From a virus, in IMG/VR virus record IMGVR_UViG_3300007074_000100, positions 1 through 25,777 of that record: 25,777 bases of DNA. One strand, given 5' to 3'. Within the stretch, counting starts at the first letter, position 1. Each line of letters opens with the position of its first letter. Position numbers and translations under genes: made by a program. The notes beneath the pieces are model-generated. The model was given only the letters and a program-made list of their open reading frames with translations, was not told the DNA's origin and did no database searches. Shown here piece after piece: positions 5,721 through 23,496 of the stretch.

Positions 5721-6048
5721 AACAAGAGCCCTCAGTCCCACCCGTATTCAAAAGATTTGTAAAGACCTTATTGGAGAGTCGGGAGACGATAGAGGCTTGG
5801 CGCTAGAAGCCCATAAGTTTTTCAAGGCAATGGTGGAGGAGAATCCCCAAGACAATGCAGCTAAACAGCTAATGGTCGATTGCCTAAAAGCAGCACAGAC
5901 TTCGAAGAACAACGTCATTAAGATTCTAGACTTGGTTATCAAGCTAGAAGATAAGCTTCCCGAAACGGATAAAACAAAGAATAGTGCGTCGAATAACAAT
6001 AGTGTCTTTAGTCAATTGGATTCCTTCCTAGATGAGCAAAAAAAATAA
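5698..6048 (+). CDS. Hypothetical protein, 116 aa
   Basis: This protein starts at ATG 5698 after AAGGAG. It is largely helical: a basic start (PYTPKTRALSPTRIQKICKDL), an amphipathic middle with repeated Ala/Lys/Leu, then an acidic Ser/Asn-rich tail ending FSQLDSFLDEQKK. No motif is diagnostic. Its position directly before, and 17 nt overlapping, the AAA+ ATPase gene suggests a partner or adaptor; a small packaging-type subunit is another guess that I cannot support further. Confidence 0.7.
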   Translation: MPTPYTPKTRALSPTRIQKICKDLIGESGDDRGLALEAHKFFKAMVEENPQDNAAKQLMVDCLKAAQTSKNNVIKILDLVIKLEDKLPETDKTKNSASNNNSVFSQLDSFLDEQKK

Positions 6049-7348
6049 ATCAGCATTCTTCCGTATTGTATGTGACGAACTCGACGTAGTTCTAAGAGTA
6101 AGAGTATTAACCATTAGTCAGGAATCAAAGATCTATGAAGGTCTACGCCGTGGCATTACTTCCTCTACTGAACCTATCTGTGTTCAAGAATACAAGAAAA
6201 GCATTGTAGAGCTTACCACTACCTCTGCACTAGACTTATCAGAAAGAGACTACGAATCTGTTTACGATTCTGTTGTTTCCATTTATCCCTCTCTCAACCT
6301 GGAAATCCTCTGTGCTGATATTAACAATCAGGTTATTCAAGAGCAGGGAATAGATCCCTTCCTTGATAAGCTGAAGAAGACTATCAATAGCAAGCAGTCT
6401 GAGATTACTTCTGGTATTGAGTATACTCTCAATACTAAGGAGGATCTAGAAGAGATTGAGAAGGCTATTGGTATGAACATCGTAGGGCAGGAAGATGCGG
6501 TAAGCTCAGTCATGCAAACGCTGAAACTTATTGCTGCTGGTATCTCCCAACATAGTTCTATGTTCTTCGTAGGACCAACAGGTGTGGGCAAGACTGAACT
6601 TGCAAGAACCCTGGGTGCTAACTACACAGGTAACTTCTTTAAGATCAATTGCGCTGAGTACTCTGGTCAACACGAATACGCCAAGCTGATCGGCTCTCCT
6701 CCAGGCTACGTCGGGCACTCTGAAAAGAGCCTGCTTTACGAGAAGGCCGAAAAGTCAAACGCTTGGGTCTTCCTCTTCGATGAGATTGAGAAGGCTCACC
6801 ATAAACTGTATGATTTCCTACTGTCTCTCCTAGACGATGGCACCTGTACTGATAACGTAGGACGAGTCCTAGACTTCAGCAAGTCCATCTTTATCTTCAC
6901 CTCCAACCAAGGAGTAGGAGAAGTAAAAAGGGAAGCACTAGGTTTCGATAGGCAGGAAGCTAATGTTAGTGATGTCGAAATCAAGAGTACGGTGATGCAA
7001 TCTGTCAAGCGTCACTTCAGTCCTGAGTTCTTAAATCGCATTGACGAGACTATCTTCTTCACCACCTTAAATGAGGAGCAGGTTAAGAAGATCGCCAAGA
7101 TGCAATTGCAGCAACTACCTATTCGAATTACTGAGGCCGTACTTAAGTACGTTGTCAAGGGAGGCTACTCTCAAGAGTATGGTGCTCGTAATATTAAGCG
7201 ATTCATTAAGCTGAATATCGCACCCAAAGTAGCAGATGAGATTCTCGACAATACGATCCCCAGTAAGGGTGATCTCTACAAGTGCAAGGTTAGCAAAGGC
7301 CAACTAAGTATTGTAGATGTGGAAAAAATTTACACTAAAGAAGCCTAG
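6032..7348 (+). CDS. Clp/Hsp100-type AAA+ ATPase with unusual N-terminal domain
   Basis: This 438-residue protein has a C-terminal module of about 300 residues that is a ClpA/ClpB D2-type AAA+ domain. Walker A is GPTGVGKT (181-188), the pore loop GYVG (225-228), Walker B FLFDEIEKAH (247-256), sensor 1 TSN (290-292), the arginine finger FLNRID (333-338) and sensor 2 GARNIKR. A C-terminal D2-small-like domain completes it. The first 140 residues are not a Clp N-domain. Their pattern (LRVRVLTISQESKIYEGL, then CVQEYKKSIVEL) reminds me of T4-type baseplate or tail assembly proteins such as gp26, but this is a weak impression. It likely remodels or unfolds a protein complex, possibly during virion assembly. 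There is only one ATPase ring module, where full ClpA/ClpB have two. Confidence 0.88.
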   Translation: MSKKNKSAFFRIVCDELDVVLRVRVLTISQESKIYEGLRRGITSSTEPICVQEYKKSIVELTTTSALDLSERDYESVYDSVVSIYPSLNLEILCADINNQVIQEQGIDPFLDKLKKTINSKQSEITSGIEYTLNTKEDLEEIEKAIGMNIVGQEDAVSSVMQTLKLIAAGISQHSSMFFVGPTGVGKTELARTLGANYTGNFFKINCAEYSGQHEYAKLIGSPPGYVGHSEKSLLYEKAEKSNAWVFLFDEIEKAHHKLYDFLLSLLDDGTCTDNVGRVLDFSKSIFIFTSNQGVGEVKREALGFDRQEANVSDVEIKSTVMQSVKRHFSPEFLNRIDETIFFTTLNEEQVKKIAKMQLQQLPIRITEAVLKYVVKGGYSQEYGARNIKRFIKLNIAPKVADEILDNTIPSKGDLYKCKVSKGQLSIVDVEKIYTKEA

Positions 7349-22280: not shown

Positions 22281-22937
22281 TTAGTGGCTCAGGAATCTAA
22301 CGGTTTTAGTAGCATCCCAACAAAGGGCACAGGCAGCACACGATTTCACCTTTCCAGTTTGCTCAGGGCAATCGAACGACTTTCCATCGTAGGACTCTTC
22401 AGCCGCAAACCTATTTTTGGTGAGAGGGTCATAATCACCACTAACCGAGAATCTAATCGCACACCTATCGGAATAACGGAGATTCAATTGCGTGATCTTT
22501 TTGCCCATTTCCGTATCAGGATGATGAGCCGAGTAACCATAGACGGTCAGCGTAGGATACACTAGTAGCATAATGTCCCAAAAAGTGATATACTGTTCAG
22601 AGAAGAAATCACCTAGAACATGGAGGCGAATTGTGACCCCTTCCATGTATTTCGTTGTGAGAGTATCGATATCATTCTCAAGATGATGGATCAGAGCATC
22701 ATAATCAGAATGATCGAACCGATGAGCGAATGGCATATTGTTCCCATAACAGTCTTCCCAATGATGGCAAGAGGTCGGGCAGGTAGCCCTCTCAGTTAGG
22801 GTAAGGGAGAAAATACGTTTACCCTTCCAAGGCCCTTTTGTGATTTTAGAGCCTAGTTTTTTGTTATTAGAGCCAGGTTTCAGGATTCCAAGCTTTGGAG
22901 CTTTGATAGACTTCAGGTAACGGGTGGTTTGCATCAT
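22281..22937 (-). CDS. GP88/DUF7227-like cysteine-cluster protein
   Basis: This 218-residue protein has KLGILKPGSNNKKLG at the start, a cysteine cluster CPTSCHHWEDCYGNN (C53, C57, C63), IRLHVLGDFFSEQYITFWD, a later YGYSAHH, and a C-terminal cluster CPEQ...CAACALC. The order matches phage proteins known as gene product 88 or DUF7227 as I remember them. Their role is unproven; the cysteine clusters and barrel-like strands suggest a metal or Fe-S site. It is the middle gene of an operon whose two other members are also cysteine-rich. Confidence 0.78.
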   Translation of the reverse strand: MMQTTRYLKSIKAPKLGILKPGSNNKKLGSKITKGPWKGKRIFSLTLTERATCPTSCHHWEDCYGNNMPFAHRFDHSDYDALIHHLENDIDTLTTKYMEGVTIRLHVLGDFFSEQYITFWDIMLLVYPTLTVYGYSAHHPDTEMGKKITQLNLRYSDRCAIRFSVSGDYDPLTKNRFAAEESYDGKSFDCPEQTGKVKSCAACALCWDATKTVRFLSH

Positions 22938-22939
22938 AA

Positions 22940-23137
22940 CTAGTTTTTCCCGTAAAAGGCTTCTCTCTCAATCGTGGTATCGTCCCAATTCACTTCAGCT
23001 TCGATCATCTCCGCACAGAAGCGGCAGATAATCAGGTTTTCCCCAACATCGTTGCACAGTTCAGGACACTCGACGCAGAGGCGAGCGTAGTTAAGTTCTA
23101 GGCACAGGTCGCAAGTGATCGTTTTCTCAGTACTCAT
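22940..23137 (-). CDS. Small zinc-finger protein, 65 aa
   Basis: It contains CDLC (residues 9-12), CVEC, a further CN and CRFC, enough for one or two zinc sites, followed by an acidic C-terminus (EAEVNWDDTTIERE). ATG 23137 lies six bases after TATAAT and defines the start. It opens the operon with the GP88-like gene. No exact family is recognised; such proteins in phages often bind nucleic acid or host RNA polymerase. Confidence 0.76.
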   Translation of the reverse strand: MSTEKTITCDLCLELNYARLCVECPELCNDVGENLIICRFCAEMIEAEVNWDDTTIEREAFYGKN

Positions 23138-23143
23138 GCATAC

Positions 23144-23171
23144 ATTATACCAAACCCTAGGCCAATGTCAA
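23144..23171 (-). promoter_or_regulatory. Promoter TTGACA-N16-TATAAT (leaderless type)
   Basis: On the minus strand TTGACA (23171-23166) and TATAAT (23149-23144) have the spacer TTGGCCTAGGGTTTGG, then GTATGC and ATG 23137. The same hexamers and spacer recur exactly at 24237-24264. Confidence 0.94.
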
Positions 23172-23200
23172 GCTTCTCGACAGCTAAACGAGGAAAACTA

Positions 23201-23254
23201 GTCGTCGTAAACCCTTGTCAATACAGTACTTAGGGCCTTCGGCCCCGGCAAAAT
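23201..23254. repeat. Intergenic hairpin repeat, copy C
   Basis: On the minus strand: TTTTGCCGGGGCCGAAGG (a GGGCC/GGCCC hairpin), then CTGTATTGACAAGGG and TTTACG. It lies in the opposite orientation to copies A and B, upstream of the promoter at 23171. Confidence 0.65.
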
Positions 23255-23256
23255 GT

Positions 23257-23318
23257 AAAAAAGAGTGGGGGCTAAACGGTTGGTCTGCTCCGATTATTTA
23301 ATTCCCACGCGTAGGGAA
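23257..23318 (-). terminator. Possible terminator after the tmRNA-like gene
   Basis: On the minus strand TTCCC and GGGAA form a short stem around TACGCGT (23318-23302), and CACTC plus six T follows about 40 bases later (23262-23257). The stem and T-run are not adjacent, so the exact stop is uncertain. Confidence 0.4.
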
Positions 23319-23342
23319 ACCACCCAGTTCTCTTTTGTATTA

Positions 23343-23424
23343 TGGTGGAGCCGTGGGGAATCGAACCCCAGTCCTAACTATCTCCCTTACAGGTCTTAAG
23401 CTAGTCGAACACCATTTCGGCCCC
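23343..23424 (-). ncRNA. 82-nt tmRNA-like RNA lacking the mRNA domain
   Basis: On the minus strand the RNA starts GGGGCCGAAATGG and then TGTTCGAC, the 5' signature of tmRNA. It ends with GGAC, the T arm TGGGG-TTCGATT-CCCCA, CGGCTCC, A and encoded CCA. The acceptor GGGGCCG/CGGCTCC has G-U at the third pair, the alanine identity element. Between the two tmRNA ends only about 29 bases remain (part of them ACCTGTAAG, which resembles the normal 3' part of P2). They can form a weak stem (CTTA/TAAG, ACTA/TAGT) but hold no tag frame or pseudoknots. It is not a normal tRNA: no U33 loop and no D-loop GG. It lies after the gene at 23503 and would be processed from that transcript. Confidence 0.8.
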
Positions 23425-23496
23425 GATGGAGTTTGTTCCCCTGGTTATCTCCTAACAGGCTTTCTTTTAGTTCGCTCCCCTATCGGGGCAACGAAC
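23421..23496 (-). promoter_or_regulatory. Alternative RNA fold joined to the tmRNA-like 5' end
   Basis: CCCCGAT (23488-23482 read on the minus strand) can pair with ATCGGGG (23427-23421), whose GGGG are the first four bases of the tmRNA-like RNA. Inside lies CCTG-TTA...TAA-c-CAGG. A competing local hairpin GTTCG..CCCC/GGGG..CGAAC (23496-23470) uses the same CCCC. The acceptor strand of the small RNA therefore has two possible partners. Confidence 0.5.

Follow-up and report, generated by a model that had tools for sequence, protein, structure and literature searches.

The DNA analysed here (the window) is the entire IMG/VR virus record IMGVR_UViG_3300007074_000100, 25,777 bases long, and positions 23343 to 23424 of its minus strand hold an 82-nt RNA gene, encoded CCA included, that consists of both ends of a transfer-messenger RNA (tmRNA) with nothing tag-coding between them. 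Read from 23424 to 23343, this mini-tmRNA (mini) runs GGGGCCG AAATGGTGTTCGA C... GGAC TGGGGTTCGATTCCCCA CGGCTCC A CCA, with only 29 nt from TTCGAC to GGAC. Its parts and a neighbouring protein gene are collected in Table 1.

Table 1. Parts of the mini-tmRNA and its neighbouring marker gene, in window positions
Feature	Positions	Strand	Remarks
Acceptor stem, 5' strand GGGGCCG	23418..23424	-	G3 at 23422; 7/7 pairs with 23347-23353
Acceptor 3' strand CGGCTCC, discriminator A73, encoded CCA	23343..23353	-	U70 at 23349
tmRNA-type D-loop AAATGGTGTTCGAC, no D stem	23404..23417	-	Equivalents of U17, C18 and G19, known SmpB contacts
Helix 2, 5' strand CTAGCT	23399..23404	-	Read by eye
Helix 2, 3' strand AGTTAG	23374..23379	-	Pairs with 23399-23404, by eye
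Inner hairpin CCU-GUAA-GGG	23384..23393	-	Replaces pseudoknots and tag reading frame; covaries in the family
GGAC signature (23371-23374) and T arm TGGGG-TTCGATT-CCCCA (23354-23370)	23354..23374	-	5/5 T-stem pairs
218-aa protein, phrog_2554	22281..22937	-	Downstream of the mini in the window and relatives; syntenic marker

The original prediction had described two tmRNA ends fused within 82 nt without a tag frame, and the Rfam comparison that it proposed bears this out. Specifically, cmscan assigns the mini to the standard tmRNA model RF00023 at 65.4 bits (E 1.2e-23), above the gathering threshold of 47, with model positions 1-374 aligned across the 82 nt and 304 middle positions deleted. Trained on 24 further viral sequences, the window excluded, a covariance model gives it 64.7 bits (E 2e-14), and by these scores the match is far beyond chance. 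The G3-U70 pair, perfect acceptor and T stems (7/7 and 5/5 pairs), A discriminator and encoded CCA are likewise present as predicted. The folding energy of the single sequence is unremarkable (z -1.08); the evidence for the structure is comparative.

These features place the gene within a known class. It has what defines an alanine-accepting tRNA-like domain (TLD), namely a 7-bp acceptor with G3-U70, A73, a T arm and a stemless D-loop. It leaves no room for an mRNA-like domain (resume codon, tag reading frame and stop), and a single hairpin stands in place of pseudoknots PK1-PK4. Its 5' half comes first, the reverse of the permuted two-piece order in which the 3' half lies upstream, and as one short piece without a reading frame it is of the TLD-only type, lacking a coding sequence (CDS-less). 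Its inner loop of 4 nt is not the 7-nt anticodon loop of a tRNA, and cmscan listed no match to the tRNA model RF00005 at E<=1. Two longer arrangements were considered and rejected. ARAGORN did report a tmRNA, but as a 396-nt gene at 23043-23438 on the minus strand (tag VEKLDIGLGFGIMYA*), which looks false because it extends about 300 nt beyond the CCA end. A permuted arrangement through a second GGGGCCGAA near 23246 reaches 37.1 bits with RF04321, below its cut-off of 47, and that stretch reads as a separate GGGCC-GAA-GGCCC hairpin.

The mini belongs to a large viral family. A first pattern, in which TTCGAC, GGAC and the T loop were the sole fixed elements and the acceptor was left free, G3·U70 included, found at least 120 loci in viral contigs; among the matches listed, 113 (window included) have an intact 7-bp acceptor, all 113 carry G3·U70, and the set represents about 60 groups of genomes, many of them without common neighbouring genes. 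A second pattern fixed the hairpin, GGAC and T loop, and neither D-loop nor acceptor, and returned 95 stretches representing 57 unique sequences. G3·U70 is present in all 56 with an intact acceptor, A73 in 57 of 57 at a position left unconstrained, and the D-loop TCGA in 53 of 56 without having been selected for. Combined, the scans yield at least 116 distinct viral minis, single-copy in nearly all records searched, most of them with CCG-CAYG-CGG as the inner hairpin. In bacterial genomes, a narrower pattern gave 67 hits, mostly 3' parts of ordinary tmRNAs; six, from assemblies of actinobacteria and cyanobacteria, are minis with scores above 50 bits. A plasmid match, sought for one family member, was not found. 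A leader hairpin that would sequester the 5' strand of the acceptor is striking in a few relatives and was dropped as a family feature, as it shows no enrichment over groups (26 seen, 23.8 expected).

Covariation across this family is strong. In a MAFFT alignment of 24 sequences, made independently of structure and without the window, 97.7% of cells are paired; double changes number 127, whereas shuffled alignments have 35 and slid controls 18-30. For an alignment of 82 distinct viral rows fitted to the model, which leans to structure, the paired share is likewise 97.7%, there are 491 double-change cells compared with 142 after shuffling and 49-84 after sliding, and none of 500 shuffles reached its covariation score. 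The acceptor helix covaries across these 82 sequences, helix 2 is 94.8% paired with both sides changing at six of its seven pairs, and the T stem is 100% paired.

Relatives of this virus tell the same story at the locus itself. Five of them (54-58% protein identity) have the mini upstream of phrog_2554 and on the same strand, as in the window; in a sixth it lies about 3.9 kb upstream, the copy in a seventh is diverged, and four relatives have no mini in the sequence searched. The relatives' minis have the same form, are 80-85 nt long, with no full-length gene in their place, and the stems show the compensatory changes that the original prediction had asked of related phages along with a conserved length. 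Its alternative of a deleted relic thus falls, whereas the selection it had read from the stems and CCA gains from the many independent homologs, the strong covariation and the presence of G3-U70 in every intact sequence. By this comparative evidence, the mini is a selected viral gene and not a private deletion.

The marker protein phrog_2554 has weak similarity to Pfam GP88, below cut-off, and its nearest named-phage relatives infect alphaproteobacteria. Unannotated minis are also present in cultured phages, specifically in the Streptomyces phages LuckySocke, GiJojo, pSt2308, Alone3 and BRock (diverged in Riptide), in Stenotrophomonas phage Jojan60 and in Pontimonas phage phiPsal1, where the mini at 2001-2079 lies between the prohead protease and major capsid genes. 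When run on other loci with a mini, ARAGORN found no tmRNA in most of them, and such genes therefore go unannotated. A gene for SmpB was found in none of the 67 mini-carrying virus records searched, with ten bacterial control genomes positive, and any SmpB partner would therefore be the host's. Two viruses, Streptomyces phage Riptide and a virus designated G006, carry a full-length tmRNA together with a mini; in Riptide the full-length tag is ANSKFAFALAA, and the D-loop of the mini is altered. Complete phage tmRNAs occur elsewhere in standard form (Gordonia phage GMA2) and permuted form (Pseudomonas SM1, Ruegeria RpAliso and Synechococcus S-CRM01).

Some further observations concern more distant variants and the window itself. 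Vibrio phage D419 has a 68-nt TLD-like variant at 1461-1528 (37.7 bits) with G3-U70 and no TTCGAC D-loop, opposite an annotated protein gene on the other strand, and this query matches about 289 Vibrio phage records. Microbacterium phage Quenya has a variant of about 89 nt at 539-627 (35.9 bits), with G3-U70 and adjoining a tRNA-Gln gene; its type of 3' end is present in many related Microbacterium phages. In the window, an extended sigma-70-type promoter (23144-23171, minus strand; TTGACA, 16 nt, TG-TATAAT, 12/12) lies about 170 nt downstream of the mini, directly before a 65-aa open reading frame at 22940-23137, and a fragment of a ClpA/ClpB-like AAA+ ATPase (D2 half; 6032-7348, plus strand) lies near UvsX-like recombinase and IMP dehydrogenase genes.

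The data are compatible with a model in which the mini probably interferes with host ribosome rescue. The conserved parts are those required for alanine charging (G3·U70, A73), EF-Tu binding (acceptor, T arm) and SmpB binding (D-loop G19 and C18; A334 of GGAC), and the absent parts those that trans-translation needs after peptide transfer. In standard tmRNA, G19 and C18 touch SmpB, G19C abolishes trans-translation, and A334 of GGAC is also SmpB-related (PMC8363625). A precedent exists in mycobacteriophage DS6A, which has a TLD-only tmRNA (Mao et al. 2009, via PMC4131195 and PMC11915505); this form is reported to inhibit the endogenous tmRNA of E. coli, perhaps through titration of SmpB. Because of the conserved parts, the lack of SmpB genes in carriers and the DS6A precedent, the balance tips slightly towards a phage-encoded tmRNA cut down to its TLD that acts as an alanylated competitor for host SmpB and EF-Tu, blocking or diverting trans-translation. 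Host tRNA-processing enzymes would mature the RNA, and host alanyl-tRNA synthetase would charge it via G3-U70. The retained elbow and T arm would then bind host SmpB, the charged RNA would also bind EF-Tu, and the mini would compete with host tmRNA for SmpB and stalled ribosomes. Without a resume codon or tag, trans-translation would be left unfinished, which would reduce nascent-chain tagging and proteolysis during infection.

Several points weigh against this competitor model. The inhibition reported for DS6A was independent of alanine charging (PMC4131195), while the invariant G3-U70 pair suggests a role of the charged RNA beyond titration of SmpB. Judging from the related viruses without a mini in the sequence searched, the gene is dispensable. 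Finally, the presence of a full tmRNA beside the mini in two virus genomes would not obviously suit a pure inhibitor.

Conservation of the charging signal without exception implies that the charged RNA may enter ribosomes, and this makes tag-less rescue a serious contender and the main rival, possible although clearly the less likely account. Specifically, the alanylated mini and host SmpB would enter non-stop ribosomes, take over the nascent chain and release it without a degradation tag, sparing phage proteins while ribosomes are recycled. To our knowledge, however, no mechanism exists by which a peptidyl-TLD could be released when a stop codon is lacking. The full conservation of alanine pair, T arm and D-loop speaks for rescue, as it indicates that the RNA has to be charged and to enter the ribosome, neither of which simple titration would call for. 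The same function has been proposed for those mitochondrial tmRNAs that lack a reading frame, and tag-less mitochondrial tmRNA is kept together with SmpB (PMC11915505), but the TLD-only form tested elsewhere acted as an inhibitor (PMC4131195).

Other explanations fare worse. The mini might be a cis-acting processing element, a tRNA-like fold excised from a polycistronic transcript to set mRNA ends, for instance before the capsid gene, and in one clade together with phiPsal1 it is indeed flanked by the genes for head maturation protease and major capsid protein, in the same orientation and about 100-120 nt before the latter. In other viruses it lies beside tRNAs or at unrelated places, however, and since any tRNA would serve, the tmRNA-specific D-loop, GGAC and G3-U70 would go unexplained, which makes this role improbable. 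An alanyl donor, or a sink for EF-Tu or alanyl-tRNA synthetase, acting independently of stalled ribosomes, would account for the kept alanine identity elements but not for the D-loop nucleotides that contact SmpB, which such a donor would not need, and is more improbable still. An origin as a relic or integration-site (attP) copy of host ssrA, as suggested by short copies beside a tyrosine integrase in the temperate Gordonia phage Yeezy and in Mycobacterium phage Validus, is refuted by covariation, for those copies hold the 3' end only, whereas the mini keeps both halves, covarying and of constant length across unrelated viruses.

Trans-translation is near-universal in bacteria, and little is known about whether phages attack it or make use of it. 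DS6A had stood as an isolated example; a broad family that retains the alanine identity pair and the SmpB-contact nucleotides turns it into a proposition open to testing, namely that phages commonly use an RNA to target ribosome rescue. We consider it reasonably likely that tag-less mini-tmRNAs form a widespread, long-conserved viral family with an architecture of its own, in which an alanylated RNA captures SmpB and stalled ribosomes in many unrelated phages, either shutting off host trans-translation or rescuing without tagging, and which standard tRNA and tmRNA finders have missed. The family thereby exposes a gap in tmRNA annotation, and the cultured phages that carry natural tag-less tmRNAs offer material for studying the tRNA-like half alone.

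In relation to known systems, the breadth of the viral family looks like the new part, while its kind is already known. The expectation that a tmRNA carries a tag frame holds for the standard and permuted forms and not for TLD-only forms, which PMC4131195 and PMC11915505 describe in DS6A, mitochondria and some plastids. The 2025 tmRNA database lists nine unique tmRNAs as 'standard, no CDS', and the accompanying paper refers to one phage example; a search of the open-access literature found no account of a broader viral family, subscription papers being mostly outside the search. Standard (RF00023) and permuted (RF04321) tmRNAs have the acceptor, D-loop, base of helix 2, GGAC and T arm in common with the mini but carry the tag and pseudoknots that it lacks. 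Jakobid and oomycete mitochondrial tmRNAs (RF02544) are likewise tRNA-like domains without a tag frame, kept with SmpB (PMC11915505), but are organellar, usually encoded by a permuted gene and of separate origin. The CDS-less plastid tmRNAs of Mallomonadaceae (about 65 bp; PMC11915505) are also one-piece, TLD-sized and free of a reading frame, and differ in their plastid origin. The TLD-only tmRNA of DS6A is by description of the same kind as the present family, which extends this kind to a wide variety of viruses and brings to it an inner hairpin that is conserved.
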